From Nitrososphaerota archaeon (lineage in GTDB: Archaea; Iainarchaeota; Iainarchaeia; Iainarchaeales; GCA-2688035): a stretch of 40,962 nt of DNA. How positions within the stretch are numbered: the stretch's first letter is position 1; each line of letters starts with the position of its first letter. Shown piece by piece: positions 12,210-40,308 of the stretch. The notes below the pieces were generated by a model, which worked only from the letters and a program-made list of their open reading frames with translations, was not told the origin of the DNA and did not search any database. Where the stretch lies: contig JAFCCH010000002.1 in the NCBI GenBank assembly GCA_017610265.1, forward strand, positions 1-40,962, given 5' to 3'. Position numbers and translations under genes: made by a program.

Positions 12210-12731
12210 ATGACTGTTACAATCAAGAAGAATGTGGATGTTCAGGCAACACTCGAAGCAAACCAGCTTAAATACCAGGTCAAGCGCGATTTGTCAGGAG
12301 ACGTGCAATGGGTTAATGCTGCAAATGCAGGAGCACTTGCCATTAGTGCTTCAAGGTGGGGGGCAGGATTGACAACAGATACTGTGCAGACTGTTGGATT
12401 TAATTTTATTAAAATTCCAAAAGTCCAAATACAAGCCTATGCTTATTCCGGGAGTTCAACAAGCATTTCAGTAACAGTGGAAGGAAAGTTGAAAGTTAAT
12501 GGTGTTACCAAAGTATCAAGCATAATAACTGCAGCTACTACTAATGATTATACAAAAACAGTTACTAGCACCATTACACCGACTACCGTTACTCAAACAA
12601 TTACTGGCGCTTCTCCAAACACTTTTACTGCATGGGCTTCAGTAAAGTTAAATAAAGGTTTTTCAGCCGATGGTTTTGCCAGAAACAAAAGTGCTTTTCA
12701 AATAAACGACAAGGTAACGGTAATGAAGTGA
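12210..12731 (+). CDS. Orphan beta-rich protein, paralog B
   Basis: 173 residues; paralog of the protein at 78-656. Residues 1-34 match with only conservative changes (Ser/Thr, Ile/Leu) although the DNA differs at many third positions, so the N-terminus has been kept by selection over a long time. The end (INDKVTVMK) also matches. The centre differs in length and sequence: Thr/Ser/Ala-rich with beta alternation (SISVTVEGKLKVNGVT) and several Trp. No signal peptide, no Cys, no transmembrane segment. Function unknown. It is isolated between divergent purN and the glutaredoxin-like gene 33 bases downstream, with which it may be co-transcribed. Confidence 0.8.
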   Translation: MTVTIKKNVDVQATLEANQLKYQVKRDLSGDVQWVNAANAGALAISASRWGAGLTTDTVQTVGFNFIKIPKVQIQAYAYSGSSTSISVTVEGKLKVNGVTKVSSIITAATTNDYTKTVTSTITPTTVTQTITGASPNTFTAWASVKLNKGFSADGFARNKSAFQINDKVTVMK

Positions 12732-17685: not shown

Positions 17686-20600
17686 TTATGAAAGCAATCC
17701 AAGCAAATTGCCCCATATTGCCCTCGCATTGAATACTACAGGTAGATTAGTGCAGCTGCTGTCACAGGAACCGTCATTATTGCAGACATCAAGGGTATTT
17801 CCGTCTGCGTCGTCACATTCCCCGTCAATTGAACAGGTTACAGCGCATTCTTCTACAGGAGGCTCTTCTACCGGCAGATCCTCTACAAGAGGCTCTTCTG
17901 GCACAGATTCTTCTTTAACTGGAGGATCTTCCTCAACTGGAAGCTCTTCCACAGGTGATTTTTCAACCAGAGGTTCTTCTACAGGAAGATCTTGCACTGA
18001 TTTATTTTTCTCTTCAGCACACCAACTATGACTATTGTCTTTTGCACACAATTCATCCAATTTAGCGCTTAACTTTTGGTTTTTTTCATTTAGTGCTTTC
18101 ACTGCTTCTGTAAGCATTGTTATTGTTGCTCCAAGGTCACGTCCTATTGTTGCTTCATCTACTTCCACCGCGCCAGTTGAATCTGTTACTGCTATTGTTA
18201 TCATTGTGGTTGCCTTCATTGGTCCGCCTCTTTGATCTACCTTGCTTTCCTTGCCTGGCTTTGTGTAAGGCAATTTTACCCTTGTGAATTCCGGCAACGA
18301 ACTGTGATCAATTTCTCCGTCTTCCCCTGTTTCAACTAACAGCAATTGTTCTAGTGCTTCCTGGCTGCTTCCTCCCCATCCTGGTGTGTGGTCTACGTGA
18401 ATTGATGCAAATGACTTGCCTGTTATCATTAGGTCTCCAAGGAAGTTACTGTCACCAGTGACTTGCAGGCTACCATTTATGTCTAATGCCACTGTTGGAG
18501 ATGAACTTATACCCAAACCTATTCCAACAAAGCCGCCGCTTTTGGCTAGCAAAATATTTCCAAAAGAGCCATTTGCATTGTTTCCTATACCGCCAGATCC
18601 TGTTGTTAAACTAATGTCTCCACCATCTCCTCCATCACTCGGGATGTGTACACCCGCAGTTGATTCTCCACCCGCTCCTGTTAGTAATTCAATGTCTCCG
18701 CCGTTTCCTCCAAAACTAGTATCCCCAATAAATGCGGCTCCTCCGATTCCGGTTGTAATACTAAACAATCCTCCGTTTCCTCCAAAACTATACTCTGCGT
18801 CTTTGACTGCTCCGCCTTTTCCTGTTATTAATTCAATTGGCCCACCTGCTCCACCATAATTGATTCCGCCAGCAGAGCCATTGTGTCCTCCTGGTCCTGA
18901 TGCTATTTTTACTCCTCCTCCAATTCCGGCATTATCTGTCATATAATCAGCACCTGGCCCACCTACTCCGCCATTTACGTCCAAAACGCGGGCAGCGTTT
19001 TCTATATATCCAATCCCTAGTTGGCCAAATATCTTTGTTGCTCCGGCAATGTTCAAATCGCTTCCAATTTCAAGAGGACTTCCACCAAACAAGGTTCCTG
19101 AAATCTCTATATTAACAAAGTTTGCATCACCCAAAACGTTTAGGTCCTGCACCAAAACAGAGTTAGCATTGTAGTTTGTCAAATCCTTTCCAAGCGTTAC
19201 TGCTGCTTCTGCTAAAGATTTAACATTGTAACCCATAGCAATTGCTCCAGCTCCAACAGTGAAGGAATTGCTATCACTGTAACCCATTGTTATGCTGCCT
19301 TGTCCTGTTGACTTCAGTTCAGATCCATTTGCAGCCATTCCAAGAGCAATACTTCCACTATTAGTAGAATATATTTTACCCGCGGTTCCTGTGCTACCCA
19401 TTGCAATGCTTCCTGATCCAGTTGAAAAGAGTTCCCCTGACTTTCCAACAGTTCCCATTGCAATTGCCCCTGTTCCACTTGCAATAAGTTGTGCACTAGT
19501 AGAGTTTCCCATTGCAACAGAACCATTTGCTGTTGATTGAATGTAGGCAATATCCCACTTTCCATCAGAATATCCGCCTGCCATTGACCCCTTTCCACTT
19601 GCAGTTATGAATGCATTATCTCCATTGTTATAGCCATATCCCCAAGCAATAGCCCCCATATTTCCTGTACTGTTTTCTCCTGAAGAAGTTGTATTTCGCC
19701 CAATTGCAAGACTTCCGTTAGTATCATCCCAAATAAACTGGTTGCTTCCAGATATACTATACAATCCTCCTGAAATTCCCACATTTACAAAGTTGCTGTC
19801 GCCTGTTACGTTAATTCCGCCATTAATGAAACTAATCCCACTCACAGTGAAATTCGCAACATTCAAATCACCCAAAACGTTTAGGTCTTGCACCAAAACA
19901 GAGTTGGCATTGTAGTTTGTTAAATCTTTTCCTAATGTTATGCTTGCTTCTGCAATGCTTCTGACATTGTATCCTAATGCAATGCTTCCTTTTCCTTGTG
20001 TGGCCATATTTGAATCAGAGTAACCCATTAAAACTGAGCCTTCTCCATAAGACATTAAAGATCCTCCTTGCGATTGTCCAAAGGCGAAACTTCCAATTCC
20101 TATGCTTTTTAGTTGATTTGGTGATGACCATCCTCCTGCAAAACTATAATTTCCTTGTGCTACTGGATTACTTCCTATTGCAAGAGAAGCGTCCCCGAAA
20201 GCATCTGTTCCTCCTCCAAAAGCAACTGCTCCACTTCCTCTTGCAGTTACATCATTTCCTGCTGCAAATGATTCTGACCCACTTGCTGCTGAACTGTTAC
20301 CCATTGCCACAGAATATTGTCCACTTGCTGTTGTAAAAGTTCCAAAGGCTGCTGAACCACTTTGAGATGCTGTTGTATTCCAACCTTGTGCAAAAGAATA
20401 TTGCCCACTTGCCTTTGTGGTATTTCCTACTGCCATTGAGGTATCTCCCCATGCCATTGCATTGTTTCCTGCTGCAAAAGAATAGTCTCCTCTTGCTCCT
20501 CTTTCGTTTCCTGCTGCTTTTCCTGTTACAAAGGAACTTGTTCCAAAAGCAGTTACTCCCTCTCCAAAAGCTAAACTTGTATCATTACTACTATTTGCAT

Positions 20601-21684
20601 CTGCTGATTGTAGCCCTCCTCCAATCTTAACTGGACTTCCGCCAAAGATTGTTCCAGAAACTCCAATGTTTGCAAAATTACTATCTTCTGTTACGTTTAG
20701 TGTTCCTTTTATGTTTACAATTGTGTCTCCTGCTACTATGTCTTGTATTTGATATTGGCTTGCGTTCATTGTTATTAATTTTGCTGCTCCTGCGCTAATT
20801 GTTATGTTGTCATTTGCGTTAAGTTGGAAGGAACTTGATGAACCCATTTGAACTGCTGCTGCACTTGTAACAAATGACAACTGCCCTCCATGTGTTCCTG
20901 TAAAATTAACTGTGTCTGCTGCTGCTGCTTCTGATGAGAATGTTAGTGAGTCTATTGCTCCTCCATCTCCATAATTTATTTTTGCTGCGTTGTTTGAAAT
21001 CCAAGGTTCTCCACTTATTCCAATATTTGTAAAGTTGCTGTCGCCTGTGAAAGTTGGCGCAAACGTGCTTGCATACCAGGAGTTGAAGTCAGAGAATTGC
21101 ATAAATGCGTTCAGATCGATTGTCATTGCCTTTTTTGCGATGAAAGCTGAGGGGTGTGAGTTAAGTTTTACTCTTGGAACCTGGGTTGAACCGTCGACTG
21201 TTATCTGAACCCATCTTTCTGCATTGAAATCAGAAGTTGTAAGATACTGTGTTAAATTGTTGCTGCCGAGGTTTGCTGCAAAGACACCGTTGGTTACAGT
21301 TAAGCCATGGGTTTCAGTCCAAAGAGCAACTCCGCCGCTGTTGCTGTCAAAGAGTTCGAAGATAAATGTATAGTCACCTGAGAGGGCCTGACCACTGCTG
21401 TTGGTAAGCTTTCCCTGTAGAGTAATTTCCTCCGAGATTGCAAATGCGGCCGGAAGAATGGAGAGGAAGAGAATTGCAAGGCTTGCAAGCGCGAAAAGCC
21501 TTGTGAAGTTAATGGACTTATTATATATCACCCTGCTACATAATCTCTCCTTATTACTTGTGACTTTGCAGAGGAATGTAACTTCTTTTTCGGAGATCTC
21601 CTTTGAACTTGTTTCTTGAGGAATCACCTTACTTAGTAGAGTGTTTGCTATTGCGATAATTCCCGATATTTTGGAATCCCTCAT
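17686..21684 (-). CDS. Giant surface protein with YadA-like head repeats
   Basis: 1332 residues from the ATG at 21684, which has GGAGGTGA eight bases upstream; the ORF track's GTG lies inside that ribosome binding site and is not used. Order: a 60-residue charged N-terminus, a hydrophobic signal/anchor (FALASLAILFLSILPAAFA) near 64-82, a beta domain of tail-fibre type to about 190, then two blocks (roughly 370-600 and 650-835) of 14-residue-like repeats such as GDYSFAAGNNAMAWGDTSMA, the SxAxG pattern of YadA/Hep_Hag left-handed beta rolls. Collar-like motifs (GDSNFxNxGISG) recur five times. A Gly-rich block (900-1065), a VALDING-type element, a heptad coiled coil (1185-1215), a PVEE repeat stalk and a Cys-rich end follow. 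Likely a secreted trimeric fibre or adhesin; cell attachment at the C-terminus is unclear. Confidence 0.85.
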   Translation of the reverse strand: MRDSKISGIIAIANTLLSKVIPQETSSKEISEKEVTFLCKVTSNKERLCSRVIYNKSINFTRLFALASLAILFLSILPAAFAISEEITLQGKLTNSSGQALSGDYTFIFELFDSNSGGVALWTETHGLTVTNGVFAANLGSNNLTQYLTTSDFNAERWVQITVDGSTQVPRVKLNSHPSAFIAKKAMTIDLNAFMQFSDFNSWYASTFAPTFTGDSNFTNIGISGEPWISNNAAKINYGDGGAIDSLTFSSEAAAADTVNFTGTHGGQLSFVTSAAAVQMGSSSSFQLNANDNITISAGAAKLITMNASQYQIQDIVAGDTIVNIKGTLNVTEDSNFANIGVSGTIFGGSPVKIGGGLQSADANSSNDTSLAFGEGVTAFGTSSFVTGKAAGNERGARGDYSFAAGNNAMAWGDTSMAVGNTTKASGQYSFAQGWNTTASQSGSAAFGTFTTASGQYSVAMGNSSAASGSESFAAGNDVTARGSGAVAFGGGTDAFGDASLAIGSNPVAQGNYSFAGGWSSPNQLKSIGIGSFAFGQSQGGSLMSYGEGSVLMGYSDSNMATQGKGSIALGYNVRSIAEASITLGKDLTNYNANSVLVQDLNVLGDLNVANFTVSGISFINGGINVTGDSNFVNVGISGGLYSISGSNQFIWDDTNGSLAIGRNTTSSGENSTGNMGAIAWGYGYNNGDNAFITASGKGSMAGGYSDGKWDIAYIQSTANGSVAMGNSTSAQLIASGTGAIAMGTVGKSGELFSTGSGSIAMGSTGTAGKIYSTNSGSIALGMAANGSELKSTGQGSITMGYSDSNSFTVGAGAIAMGYNVKSLAEAAVTLGKDLTNYNANSVLVQDLNVLGDANFVNIEISGTLFGGSPLEIGSDLNIAGATKIFGQLGIGYIENAARVLDVNGGVGGPGADYMTDNAGIGGGVKIASGPGGHNGSAGGINYGGAGGPIELITGKGGAVKDAEYSFGGNGGLFSITTGIGGAAFIGDTSFGGNGGDIELLTGAGGESTAGVHIPSDGGDGGDISLTTGSGGIGNNANGSFGNILLAKSGGFVGIGLGISSSPTVALDINGSLQVTGDSNFLGDLMITGKSFASIHVDHTPGWGGSSQEALEQLLLVETGEDGEIDHSSLPEFTRVKLPYTKPGKESKVDQRGGPMKATTMITIAVTDSTGAVEVDEATIGRDLGATITMLTEAVKALNEKNQKLSAKLDELCAKDNSHSWCAEEKNKSVQDLPVEEPLVEKSPVEELPVEEDPPVKEESVPEEPLVEDLPVEEPPVEECAVTCSIDGECDDADGNTLDVCNNDGSCDSSCTNLPVVFNARAIWGNLLGLLS
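19127..19191 (-). repeat. 65-bp internal duplication, copy B
   Basis: This segment encodes KDLTNYNANSVLVQDLNVLG and matches 19868-19932 at all but about four positions, including silent sites. The two copies end the two head-repeat blocks of the surface protein and indicate a fairly recent internal duplication or gene conversion. Confidence 0.8.
19868..19932 (-). repeat. 65-bp internal duplication, copy A
   Basis: Partner of 19127-19191, encoding the same KDLTNYNANSVLVQDLNVLG peptide at the end of the first head block. Flanking sequences on either side have diverged much more than the repeat itself. Confidence 0.8.
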
Positions 21685-21692
21685 GTTTCTCG

Positions 21693-21700
21693 TCACCTCC
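21693..21700 (-). promoter_or_regulatory. Strong Shine-Dalgarno of surface protein gene
   Basis: GGAGGTGA on the minus strand, eight bases before ATG 21684. It decides the start codon: the in-frame GTG at 21696 lies within it, and the downstream in-frame GTG at 21531, which would leave a conventional signal peptide, has no comparable site. Confidence 0.75.
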
Positions 21701-36262: not shown

Positions 36263-36309
36263 GTTTTCTCTACTTTTAACTAATTTGAGCTTTGAAACAC
36301 TTTTTGAAA

Positions 36310-36314
36310 GGAGG
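36310..36314 (+). promoter_or_regulatory. Shine-Dalgarno deciding the start of the second LeuA-family gene
   Basis: GGAGG (within AAAGGAGGC), seven to eight bases before ATG 36322. It rules out the ORF track start at 36292, which lies upstream of this site. Confidence 0.75.
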
Positions 36315-36321
36315 CAAAGCC

Positions 36322-37851
36322 ATGAAAAAAACAACTATTCTTGACACAACATTAAGAGATGGAGAACAAACACAAGGGGTTTCATTTACCCCAAAGGAAA
36401 AGCTCAGCATTGCAAAAATATTGCTTTCAGAAGTAAAAGTTGACTGGATTGAAGTGGCCAGCACAAGGGTTAGCAAAGGAGAACTTGCAGCAGTGCAAAA
36501 GATTTCCAAATGGGCAAAAGAAAATGGGTTTCTTGAAAAATTAAGTGTTCTTGGATTTGTTGACGGCAACAAAAGTGTTGACTGGGCAGTTGAAGCAGGA
36601 GTTGAAACAATTTGGATTCTTGCAAAAGGAAGCCTGCTTCACATAAAAGAACAATTGAGAAAAAGCCCGGAAGAGCATCTGAAAGAGCTTGGCAAAACAT
36701 TTGATTATGCAAAAAGCAAGGGTTTGGAAGCCAACCTCACAATAGAAATATGGAGCAATGGAATGCTTGAAAACAAAGACTTTGTGAAAAAACTTGTTGA
36801 AACAGCCAAAGAAAAGGGAGTGAAAAAAGCAAGCCTCTGTGACACGCTTGGGATTTTAACACCGGAGGAAACAAAACAACTTGTCGAAGAAATGGTTTCA
36901 AACTTTCCAGACATGGCATTTGAGTTTCATGCACACAATGATTACGGTCTCGCCGTTGCAAACAGTCTTGCAGCAACAAAAGCAGGCTGTGCCACAATAC
37001 ATGCAACAGTGAACGGCCTGGGAGAACGGGCGGGAAACACACCTTTGGATGAATTGGCCGTTGTGTTAAACGACAAGACAGAGTTTGGCTGCAACATTGA
37101 AGAGAAAATGCTTTCAAAGGCAAGCAAAGTTGTTGAAACCTTTTCAGGAAAAAGAATTTCTGCAAACAAGCCTGTTACAGGAAGCAATGTCTTTACTCAG
37201 ACAGCCGGAATACATGCAGACGGAGACAAAAAAGCAGGGCTTTACAAAAGCAAGCTCAGACCAGAAAGATTTGGAAAAGAAAGGCAGTACGCTTTAGGAA
37301 AGCTCAGTGGAAAAGCAAGCATTGACCAAAATCTTGAAAAGCTTGGATTAAATCTTGGCAGGGGAGAAAAGGAAAAGCTGTTGAAGAGAATTGTTGAATT
37401 GGGAGACAAGAAAAAGGCTGTGACAGCAGAAGACCTTCCATTCATTGTGTCAGATCTTCTTGGAACACCAGAGAAAACTTTTTACAGAATTGCCAACTGT
37501 CAAGTCAGTTCAGGCACTGGAATAAAGCCAACTGCCTCATTCACACTCGAAGCCAATGGAAAGGAATTCAGTGAAAGTGCAGTGGGAGACGGCGGCTACA
37601 ATGCATTTATGAACGCCCTTGCAAAAGTTAGCAAAAAGGCAGGAATTAAACTGCCGAAACTTTTGGATTACGAAGTAAGAATTCCCCCAGGCGGAAAAAC
37701 AGACGCCCTTGTTGAAACAACAATCACTTGGAAAAACAATGGCAAAAGCTTTTCCACAGTGGGAATTGATTCAGACCAGGTTATGGCCGCAATAAAGGCA
37801 ACTGAAAAAATGATGAATATTGTTGCAAGAAAAAAGGAAAAAGGGCTTTAA
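36322..37851 (+). CDS. LeuA2-type isopropylmalate/citramalate synthase
   Basis: 509 residues. A DRE-TIM acyltransferase that condenses acetyl-CoA with a 2-keto acid. The catalytic barrel has [22 protein letters not shown] at the start, HAHNDYGLAVANSLAA near 205 (metal His pair) and [15 protein letters not shown] near 233; NVFTQTAGIHADGDKK near 290 and ALGKLSGKASI near 325 follow. The C-terminal 120 residues look like the LeuA regulatory dimer domain that senses the end product. The variant HADGDKK and LTIEIWSNG segments recall LeuA2-type enzymes rather than classical LeuA. Substrate may be 2-ketoisovalerate (leucine) or pyruvate (citramalate, isoleucine). It overlaps the convergent dehydrogenase gene by four bases (TTAA). 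Confidence 0.88.
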   Translation: MKKTTILDTTLRDGEQTQGVSFTPKEKLSIAKILLSEVKVDWIEVASTRVSKGELAAVQKISKWAKENGFLEKLSVLGFVDGNKSVDWAVEAGVETIWILAKGSLLHIKEQLRKSPEEHLKELGKTFDYAKSKGLEANLTIEIWSNGMLENKDFVKKLVETAKEKGVKKASLCDTLGILTPEETKQLVEEMVSNFPDMAFEFHAHNDYGLAVANSLAATKAGCATIHATVNGLGERAGNTPLDELAVVLNDKTEFGCNIEEKMLSKASKVVETFSGKRISANKPVTGSNVFTQTAGIHADGDKKAGLYKSKLRPERFGKERQYALGKLSGKASIDQNLEKLGLNLGRGEKEKLLKRIVELGDKKKAVTAEDLPFIVSDLLGTPEKTFYRIANCQVSSGTGIKPTASFTLEANGKEFSESAVGDGGYNAFMNALAKVSKKAGIKLPKLLDYEVRIPPGGKTDALVETTITWKNNGKSFSTVGIDSDQVMAAIKATEKMMNIVARKKEKGL

Positions 37852-38915
37852 CAACCCTTTTTCTCAATCCTTTCCAATGCAATGCCGTCTGCAATCTCTG
37901 TTGTTGGACTGTTTTCTGCCTCAGAACGCTTCAAAATGTCCAGAATTCTGTCAAATGTTGCGTCAGTTCTCTGCATTACCTCCTTCTTGTTGTAGGCTGA
38001 ACCAGTTACAACTACCTCATTGGCAACACTTATCAGTCCGCCGCAGTTTATGACATAGTCTGGAGCATAAACAATATTCTTTTCATGCAAGACACTGCCC
38101 ATTTCAAAGGAAGCCAATTGATTGTTTGCAGCCCCTGCAACAATCTTGCACTTCAAGTCCTTTACAGTGTCTTTGTTTATTATCTCTCCAAAGGCACAGG
38201 GAGCAAAGATGTCGCAGTCAACGCCAACAATTTCTTCAGGCTCAACAGACCTTACATTAAAACGCAAGTTAGCCATTTCAATCTTGGCTGGGTTAACATC
38301 TGAGACAACGATGTTTGCACCTGCCTTGCCAAGGTAGTGTAAGAGGCTGAAGCCAACATTTCCAATGCCTTGAACAGCAACAGTCTTTCCCTTCAATGAT
38401 TCAGAACCAAAAACTTGGAAACAACAGGCCTGCATTCCTCTAAAGACACTAAAAGCTGTTACAGGAGAAGGGTCTCCTGCCTCGCCTGGCACTCCTGTCA
38501 CAAAGTCTGTTTGCTTCCGAACATTGACCATGTCTTCTTCATTTGTGCCAACATCTTCTGCAGCAATGTACTTTCCATGCAATTGATCAATTGCTTTTCC
38601 AAACCTTTCAAACAACAGGGCTCTTTGGCCTAGATCCAAAGCAGCCGGGTCAATAAGAATAACGCTTTTTCCTCCACCCAGGTCCAAGCCAGCAACGCTT
38701 GCCTTAAAAGTCATGGCCCTGGCAAGCCTTAGGGCATCTTTTTCTGCAGCTTTCTCAGGCGAAACACCGTATGAATTTGTTTTGTAGTGAAACATTCGAA
38801 TTCCACCAAGAGCCGGACCCAATGCATTACTGTGAACCGCAATGAAAAAGCGCGCTCCTGTTTCCTCGTCTGAATTCACGTCAATGAACTCAAACCCTTC
38901 AATTTCTCTTTTCAT
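37848..38915 (-). CDS. Leucine dehydrogenase-like amino acid dehydrogenase
   Basis: 355 residues from the ATG at 38915; the ORF track TTG is one codon upstream. NAD-dependent Glu/Leu/Phe/Val dehydrogenase family: interconverts branched-chain amino acids and their keto acids with ammonia. Catalytic segment MTFKASVAGLDLGGGKSVI near residue 68-86 (lysine in MTFK and GGGK), DVGTNEEDM near 122, Rossmann motif VAVQGIGNVGFSLL near 185, and GAANNQLA near 262. The match to leucine dehydrogenase (MTYKAAAAGLxLGGGK) is close. Its ATG overlaps the leuA stop (TGATG), so it is coupled to leuA and probably performs the last, amination step of leucine synthesis instead of a transaminase, or the reverse. Confidence 0.93.
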   Translation of the reverse strand: MKREIEGFEFIDVNSDEETGARFFIAVHSNALGPALGGIRMFHYKTNSYGVSPEKAAEKDALRLARAMTFKASVAGLDLGGGKSVILIDPAALDLGQRALLFERFGKAIDQLHGKYIAAEDVGTNEEDMVNVRKQTDFVTGVPGEAGDPSPVTAFSVFRGMQACCFQVFGSESLKGKTVAVQGIGNVGFSLLHYLGKAGANIVVSDVNPAKIEMANLRFNVRSVEPEEIVGVDCDIFAPCAFGEIINKDTVKDLKCKIVAGAANNQLASFEMGSVLHEKNIVYAPDYVINCGGLISVANEVVVTGSAYNKKEVMQRTDATFDRILDILKRSEAENSPTTEIADGIALERIEKKGC

Positions 38916-40147
38916 CAAATCACCTCATTTTTATTGCCTTTAACAATTTCATTAGCAATCGCAACAATGTCCCTCTTTCGGACACTTTTTTTCACGTCCG
39001 CAACCTGCTTTATCCTGGCAGTGACTGCATCAAGCTCTTCTCCTGAAAAAAAGAAGCCCATTTCTTCAAGCACAGCTTTTGTGGCATGCTTTCCTGAATG
39101 CTTTCCAAGCACAAGCTTTGAGATTTTTCCAATTGTTTCAGGTTTCATTATTTCATAAGTTCTCGAATCAGCAAGCATGCCGTGCTGGTGAACGCCTGCT
39201 TCGTGGGCAAAAGCATTTTCTCCAACAATTGCCTTGTTTCTCTGCACAGCAATGCCTGTAAAGTTTGAAACCATTTTTGAAGCCGGATAAATTTCCTTAA
39301 AGTTAATGCAGGTGCCTGTTTCAAAAAACTCTTTTCTTGTGAAAAGATTCATTGCAATTTCTTCAAGTGAAGCATTGCCTGCCCTTTCACCAAGGCCATT
39401 TATTGTGCATTCAACCTGCCTTGCCCCGTTCATTATAGCAGCCATGCTGTTTGCAACAGCCATTCCAAGATCATCATGGCAATGAACACTGATTGCCGCA
39501 GCCTCAATATTTGGAACATTTTCTTTCACATGCCTTACAAGCCTGCCAAATTCATTAGGCTGGGAATAGCCAACAGTGTCCGGAATATTAATTGTTGTCG
39601 CCCCTGCATTGATGACTGCTTCAAAGATTTCGCAAAGAAATTCAGGGCTTGACCTGCTTGCATCCTCTGCGCTGAACTCAATGTCCTCACAAAAGTTTTT
39701 TGCAAAGCCAACCATTTCAACAGCCTGCTTTTTTACAGCAGCCTTTGACATTTTGAGCTTGTGCTTCATATGAATTTGAGAAGTTGCAATAAATGTGTGA
39801 ATCCTTGGCTTTTTTGCAGACTGCACTGCCTGCCAGGCTTTCTCAATGTCCTTTTCGAGGGTTCTTGCAAGCCCGCATACAATTGGCTTTCTCACAGTTT
39901 GAGAAACTGCTTTTACTGCCTTAAAGTCGTCCTGGCTTGCAATTGGAAAACCTGCTTCTATAACGTCAACATTCAGGCTTTCAAGCTTTTGTGCAATCTC
40001 AATCTTTTCACCGTGGGTTAAGGTTGCCCCAGGGCTTTGTTCCCCATCCCTAAGAGTAGTGTCAAAAATCCTTACCCTGCCATGGCTCTTAAAATTTCCG
40101 GCAACCGGGCCGACGGATGTCTGGGTTCTCAAAAAGCACATCTCCAT
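38915..40147 (-). CDS. leuA: 2-isopropylmalate synthase without regulatory domain
   Basis: 410 residues from the ATG at 40147 (alternatives TTG 40150 or ATG 40141; none has a good ribosome binding site). First committed step of leucine synthesis, acetyl-CoA plus 2-ketoisovalerate. Seen: [20 protein letters not shown] near residue 26, [15 protein letters not shown] near 60, [18 protein letters not shown] near 205 (metal His), [17 protein letters not shown] near 240, and [14 protein letters not shown] near 302. It ends about 50 residues after the GKHSGKHA segment, so the C-terminal leucine-sensing domain of full-length LeuA (about 510 residues) is absent. It lies downstream of a leucine-rich leader ORF, which may replace feedback at the protein level. 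Homocitrate or citramalate synthase is less likely but possible. Confidence 0.92.
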
Positions 40148-40160
40148 CAAAGAGTTTATA

Positions 40161-40190
40161 GTTGCTAGAGATGGCTTACTCTAGCAGCAA
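40161..40190 (-). promoter_or_regulatory. Hairpin at the end of the leader ORF
   Basis: On the coding strand UGCUAGAG, containing the last Leu and Glu codons, pairs with CUCUAGCA across a UAAGCCAU loop that includes the stop codon; with a 3-base bulge the stem extends to GUU/AAC. It lies between the leucine codon run and the leuA start. A competing pairing of CAUCUCU (40167-40173) with GGAGAUG at the leuA start is also possible. Confidence 0.6.
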
Positions 40191-40256
40191 CAAGGTCAAC
40201 AGAAGCAAAGCTGAAAGAACTGTAACAGATTTCTTAAAATTTACTGCTTTGCTCAT
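40176..40256 (-). CDS. Leucine-rich leader peptide upstream of leuA
   Basis: 26-residue ORF too short for the track. It starts with ATG, has AGGTGA exactly eight bases upstream, and lies about 45 bases after a TATA box. The sequence begins [13 protein letters not shown] and ends [12 protein letters not shown]-stop: nine leucines in all, eight in the last ten residues, using five TTG/CTG codons, CTT and CTA. The last leucine codons form the left arm of a hairpin, and leuA begins 28 bases after the stop. This is the design of amino-acid attenuator leaders such as leuL of enteric bacteria, here read by ribosomes short of charged tRNA-Leu. Alternative: a tiny membrane peptide, since KK followed by a hydrophobic run would also insert in a membrane. 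Confidence 0.7.
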
Positions 40257-40264
40257 TTTGATAT

Positions 40265-40270
40265 TCACCT
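40265..40270 (-). promoter_or_regulatory. Shine-Dalgarno of the leader ORF
   Basis: AGGTGA on the minus strand, eight bases before the leader ATG. It is better placed than any ribosome binding site in front of leuA itself, which shows that translation of the mini-ORF is intended. Confidence 0.65.
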
Positions 40271-40297: not shown

Positions 40298-40308
40298 TAT
40301 TTATATTA
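40298..40308 (-). promoter_or_regulatory. TATA box of the leucine operon
   Basis: TAATATAAATAA on the minus strand predicts transcription start near 40275. This gives a roughly 130-base leader that contains the mini-ORF and the hairpin before leuA. Confidence 0.5.

Follow-up and report, generated by a model that had tools for sequence, protein, structure and literature searches.

A leucine-rich ORF in front of an archaeal leuA

Leader-peptide attenuation is a textbook mechanism of bacteria. The locus described here raises the question of whether the same logic may govern an amino-acid operon in an archaeon: in the stretch of 40,962 nt that we analysed (the window), a short open reading frame (ORF) with a leucine-codon run towards its end stands at the head of a leuA operon. 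According to a paper of 2021, neither transcription attenuation nor antitermination was known in archaea, attenuation goes unmentioned in a review of archaeal coupling (PMC8116511), and one tool paper mentions control by upstream ORFs in archaea in general terms only. Our search of the openly accessible literature, with subscription papers outside it, found no archaeal amino-acid leader attenuator.

The leader ORF occupies positions 40176..40256 of the reverse (-) strand, on which all features of this locus lie, and comprises 26 codons, nine of which are leucine codons (ATG AGC AAA GCA ... TTG CTT CTG TTG ACC TTG TTG CTG CTA GAG TAA, read from 40256 to 40176). Eight of the last ten residues of the encoded peptide are leucine. 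The sequence upstream contains a TATA box, TATAAATA, at 40298..40305, which would serve the leader/leuA transcript, and a Shine-Dalgarno-like AGGTGA at 40265..40270, 8 nt 5' of the leader ATG. All of these elements, as well as the position of the ORF upstream of leuA, had been reported in a preliminary description of this DNA and were confirmed by the sequence; the host, which was thought there to be an archaeon, proved to be one by its 16S rRNA, and its lineage is probably a DPANN one such as Iainarchaeota/Diapherotrites. Comparable signals accompany the leaders of relatives: AT-rich TATA-type boxes (TTTAAA and similar) are found about 30-55 nt 5' of the leader start in nearly all of them, and GTGA-type motifs are similarly placed in many.

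The chance background for such a leucine run was taken from the genome of a relative (G028), which is nearly complete with 1.25 Mb in two contigs. Of the 1058 short ORFs of this genome that terminate between genes, the leuA leader alone has seven leucines in its last 12 residues; six were counted in one ORF, five in one and four in 26. Other single-residue leaders were also sought in this genome, and nothing else convincing was found.

Leaders of leuA operons in the order and beyond

The sample of the phylum consisted of 87 genomes, 75 of them belonging to the order of the window, in draft assemblies. Eighteen leuA loci of the order had enough upstream DNA to be evaluated, and a leucine-run leader was present at the head of the leuA-carrying operon in all of them (18/18). 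Outside the order, seven more loci with a leader were found (G341, G270, G355, G287, G398, G399 and one copy in G389), so that the ORF is kept as a leucine-run ORF in 25 archaeal leuA loci. No leader was seen at three leuA copies of a second phylum that are embedded in other operons, behind ilvC or leuB (the second G389 copy, G391 and G397). The preliminary description had proposed examining relatives for a leucine run that is kept while other codons drift. This is the pattern observed: across the loci the frame and its leucine run are retained, the peptide having otherwise changed completely, and the order yielded no leuA lacking a leader at the operon head.

Absence of the leader from G023 and G287 was considered and rejected, the leader being found at the head of a longer operon. 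In G023, leuA is internal, and the leader, MQAGKNSPQKITFSQNKRLISSLSLLNLLLLK*, precedes a small gene heading an ilvE-leuA-leuB-leuC operon. Judged by eye, this small gene may encode a winged-helix regulator; no Pfam family matched it.

The leuA and dehydrogenase genes

The leuA gene of the window (38915..40150) encodes, according to Pfam and NCBIfam, a 2-isopropylmalate synthase with the catalytic HMGL-like part and HCS_D2 and with no LeuA_dimer domain. Its end is overlapped by a gene for an ELFV-family (Leu/Val/Trp-type) amino-acid dehydrogenase (37848..38918; Pfam/NCBIfam). If the ATG at 40147 is used, the distance from the leader stop to leuA is 28 nt. The true start of leuA in the window is uncertain: translation from the first ATG gives LeuA a longer N-terminus than relatives have, and the 3' arm of the hairpin described below lies within this part of the reading frame. 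Relative to a 10-residue LeuA segment, the start lies 6-10 residues before in most relatives, and the only in-frame starts in the window lie 22-28 residues before. The window does have an ATG at the relatives' start position (ATGGCAGGGTAAGG), but it misses the frame by one base; this places either the start codon or the assembly in doubt. As read, positions 40075-40150 encode an N-terminal extension that is not present in relatives.

The preliminary description had remarked that this LeuA lacks its leucine-sensing domain and had argued that control by the leader would make sense for that reason. The domain is indeed missing in the window, whereas the LeuA proteins of most leader-bearing relatives are full-length and contain the allosteric LeuA_dimer domain; compensation for the missing domain was therefore rejected as an explanation of the leader.

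A gene for a CimA-like citramalate synthase is convergent to the leuA-dehydrogenase pair (window 36292-38918). In the genome to which the window belongs (G000, 82% complete), no acetolactate synthase was found, and the only KARI_N matches were weak and not IlvC-like; 2-ketoisovalerate may thus be made from valine by the dehydrogenase in this organism.

Alternative hairpins at the end of the leader

Directly 3' of the leader stop, the RNA of the window can form a hairpin, H2 (40136..40175), with its 5' arm at 40175-40162 and its 3' arm, GATGGAGATG, at 40150-40136. The window H2 is significant against shuffled sequences (p=0.010), and the combined value across leaders, with one locus per family, is p=1e-6. 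Compared with 838 other short-ORF stops in G028, the post-stop hairpin stands out, with p=2e-7 when every leuA leader is counted and p=1e-3 when each family contributes one. H2 is possible in nearly every locus, and the sequences of its arms differ between families yet remain complementary, as in GCACTTCC/GGAAGTGC, CATCTCTAG/TGGAGATG, GCAGCAGAAA/TTTCTGCTGC and GTGTATT/AATACAC. This predicted hairpin is well supported by the comparison. Because H2 begins 0-3 nt behind the leader stop, its 5' arm would stay under a terminating ribosome until that ribosome is released, a point against the attenuator reading proposed below.

A second hairpin, H1, which excludes H2, was predicted by RNAfold in the window (z=-2.8, p=0.014). 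Its 5' arm, TGCTAGAG (40179..40186), lies in region 2, the last leucine codons, and its 3' arm, CTCTAGCA (40163..40170), overlaps region 3, which is the 5' arm of H2. In an arm-swap test, in which leader tails and post-stop sequences were exchanged between families, the native combinations paired better, with p values of 0.011-0.027. H1 is clear in G000, G010, G011 (GCTAGGA/TCCTAGC), G014, G015, G072, G070 and others; it is weak or absent in G009, G030, G062 and G043 and weak in family f15. We regard H1 as a moderately supported candidate for a competing antiterminator hairpin. One genome, G019, was excluded from the combined values of the shuffle test on H2, the arm-swap test on H1 and the short-ORF-stop test.

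In the window, a U5 tract at 40131..40135 directly 3' of H2 is a candidate terminator tail. Archaeal terminators have been described as U-tracts of 4-7 U that are read by aCPSF1, with a hairpin usually unneeded (PMC8716108).

A proposed mechanism and its alternatives

Taken together, the comparative evidence supports the proposal of the preliminary description that attenuation logic of the leuL type operates in an archaeon, and we consider it likely that the leader is a ribosome-mediated attenuator that senses charged tRNA-Leu (and tRNA-Val). The transcript would start just 5' of the short ORF, whose last third is a leucine run, joined by valine codons in operons that serve valine synthesis too. 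Under a shortage of charged tRNA-Leu, the ribosome would stall early in the leucine run and leave region 2 free to pair with region 3 as H1; H2 would then not form, and RNA polymerase would continue into leuA. With leucine in good supply, the ribosome would reach the stop, cover region 2 and then leave, and regions 3 and 4 would form H2, upon which transcription would end at the U-rich stretch or close to it, probably with help from the archaeal termination factor aCPSF1/FttA. The operon would accordingly be on when leucine is scarce, the sense of control expected for a biosynthetic operon. Against this reading stand the weak or absent H1 of some members, the lack of a U4 or longer tract at about half of the leaders, and the three leuA copies of the second phylum at which no leader was seen.

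The same leader and the same stalling could also act on translation, with H2 masking the downstream gene's ribosome-binding site or laying the mRNA open to decay. In a few members, H2 extends with its 3' arm into the ribosome-binding region of the following gene: in the window this arm overlaps a possible leuA start and Shine-Dalgarno sequence, and in G023 it contains GGTGG just 5' of the ATG of the first gene. The output in these two cases may therefore be translational. About half of the loci, moreover, have no U-tract after H2. In most relatives, however, the first gene starts about 40-130 nt 3' of H2, so that its start is left uncovered, and about 11 of 24 leaders do have a tract of U4 or longer behind H2. 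As a general account of the leaders, translational attenuation seems to us rather unlikely.

It is quite improbable that the RNA structure alone senses leucine or tRNA in the manner of a riboswitch or a T-box, the ORF being incidental. Such a reading would draw on the conserved hairpin and on a motif resembling AGAAGTC(T/A)TTAG, which recurs 15-25 nt after the hairpin in several families (L006, L004, L007, L119, L012, L015 and L217). However, Rfam gave no match in the window up to E=1 and none in the leader loci of relatives at the gathering threshold, the arms are unrelated in sequence from one family to another, and nothing resembling an aptamer core is conserved; what is conserved is the frame of the ORF and its amino-acid content. 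By eye, the AGAAGTC-type motif can pair in some families with CTTCTG in the loop of H2, in a pseudoknot-like manner.

Leader codons follow the content of the operon

An attenuator that reads tRNA charging would be expected to carry codons for the products of its operon, and the valine codons of the leaders were compared with the presence of ilvB, which encodes acetolactate synthase, an enzyme needed for valine and leucine. All 12 leaders of operons with ilvB have at least two valines in their last 14 residues (G009, G010, G011, G013, G014, G015, G031, G034, G043, G062, G067 and G341), and all ten leaders of operons without ilvB have at most one (G000, G019, G023, G028, G030, G070, G072, G270, G287 and G355). 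Fisher's test gives 1.5e-6 for this association if the loci are taken as exchangeable; the loci are related. The threshold was set on 17 loci, and the five added later (G341, G270, G355, G023 and G287) all fitted it. By our reading of the LeuA tree, linkage to ilvB has switched about six times, and the valines have switched along with it.

A covariance model built from the leuA leaders found valine-rich leaders, MFSAMPSKVLLPVAVLVVLVVALVA and MFEKSTIRFYVALLVAVVAVLAA, before ilvB in G019 and G037, and these have the same post-stop hairpin as the leuA leaders. Leaders containing valine and leucine also stand at the separate ilvB genes of G070, G073, G066, G030 and G028, the start codons in the last two being uncertain. 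Separate ilvB operons with valine/leucine leaders of their own occur in genomes whose leuA leader has no valine run. Four weak matches of the leader model (E 1e-3 to 3e-3), at G034:C11:4576, G046:C38:14574, G002:C9:9798 and G040:C49:10961, may be leaders or chance.

These observations also bear on the possibility that the ORF encodes a hydrophobic membrane microprotein that lies beside leuA by happenstance. The peptides are short, and they often have a basic N-terminus and a hydrophobic C-terminus, as such a protein might. Their sequence, however, is not conserved; the leucine and valine content tracks the operon; the ORF heads operons with leuA or ilvB and has a hairpin behind it; and in the model search, no conserved copy at any other place scored comparably. 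The preliminary description had itself named a membrane peptide conserved irrespective of its neighbours as an outcome that would speak against a leader. The valine content follows the adjoining genes, which argues against a fixed membrane peptide, and we judge this explanation very improbable.

Origin of the leader

In the LeuA tree, the 18 sequences of the order and four other archaeal sequences form one clade apart from the sampled bacteria (support 98/86). The leader is present in all 22 sampled members of this clade, so that a single gain in the ancestor of the clade would be the simplest history. It has been kept down to about 53% LeuA identity and through rearrangements of the operon, with matching changes in its codons. 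Among the closest bacterial leuA loci, 78 could be scanned, and an upstream ORF with at least six leucines in its last 12 residues was found at two of them (2/78); we therefore rejected a carry-over of the leader with leuA from bacteria. That the leader is a non-working relic brought in with a bacterial leuA is hardly credible: the LeuA is of bacterial type and its nearest outside matches are bacterial, but the rarity of such leaders at the nearest bacterial loci, the archaeal TATA boxes in front of the leader, its retention over this divergence and the correlation between codons and operon all speak against it.

With the attenuator as the preferred reading, we lean towards a broader interpretation, in which amino-acid attenuation works in archaea of at least three groups (two phyla plus G341) and is probably ancestral to one archaeal LeuA clade. 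The codon mix of the leader would be tuned to the products of the operon, leucine or leucine plus valine, and ribosome stalling would be turned into a transcription decision by the archaeal RNA polymerase.

Other observations

Histidine and tryptophan leaders were sought near hisG and trpE, and no residue run was found. At three trpE loci, L326 (G009), L331 (G013) and L332 (G015), a tRNA-Trp(CCA) gene lies directly upstream of trpE. About 130-200 nt further upstream, behind a TTTAAATA box, these loci have a conserved ORF of 9-11 codons with one tryptophan codon, encoding MQGDSLWLR, MQGDSLWLQ or MTSKGDSLWLQ and followed by a conserved CTGATTTAACTAGCC. This may be a trp leader or a small RNA.

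Two further features of the window were noticed. A surface-type protein of 1336 aa encoded at 17686-21696 (-) contains many SxAxG-type repeats that by eye resemble the head repeats of YadA and other trimeric adhesins, and such a protein is unusual for an archaeon. Two paralogues at 78-656 and 12210-12731 (+) have near-identical N-termini (MTVTIKKNVDVQA..EANQLKYQVKRDLSGDVQ), similar C-termini and dissimilar middles.

Comparison with known systems

If the attenuator reading is true, small-genome archaea use bacterial attenuation logic with a different RNA polymerase and different termination machinery, which would imply tight transcription-translation coupling in these organisms and a regulated termination step. 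The leader region, a few hundred bases long and movable into a cultured archaeon, is a ready test system.

The leuL-leuABCD system of E. coli and Salmonella resembles the archaeal leaders in having a short ORF rich in leucine codons before leuA and alternative hairpins overlapping the end of this ORF, which in the archaea are predicted ones; many archaeal members also share a terminator-like hairpin with a U-tract. The archaeal leaders differ in their host, in their TATA promoter and in showing no detectable sequence relation to leuL. Their terminator-side hairpin begins immediately behind the stop, and the U-tract is often short or missing; archaeal RNA polymerase and aCPSF1/FttA would take the place of bacterial intrinsic termination. 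The match between leader codons and the amino acids made by the operon recalls the ivbL-ilvBN and ilvGMEDA leaders of E. coli, with valine and leucine before ilvB, whereas in the archaea the valine content varies with the presence of ilvB in the leuA operon. The T-box riboswitches of bacterial leuA and ilv operons likewise exert upstream RNA control by tRNA charging; unlike them, the archaeal leaders match neither the T-box nor any other Rfam family, and a coding leader is conserved instead.

Among the systems described from bacteria other than proteobacteria, the LEU element that precedes leuA in actinobacteria comes closest; in it, leucine codons pair with the leuA Shine-Dalgarno sequence and a pseudoknot has been proposed (PMC1262725). 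Both have a leader ORF with a run of leucine codons, and these codons take part in RNA pairing in the LEU element and are predicted to do so in the archaea; in the latter, by contrast, the predicted partner of these codons lies just after the stop, in H1, and usually far from the leuA start. As judged from these comparisons, the proposed control would be of a kind known from bacteria, and what would be new is the archaeal domain, the termination machinery and the tuning of the leader to the content of its operon.
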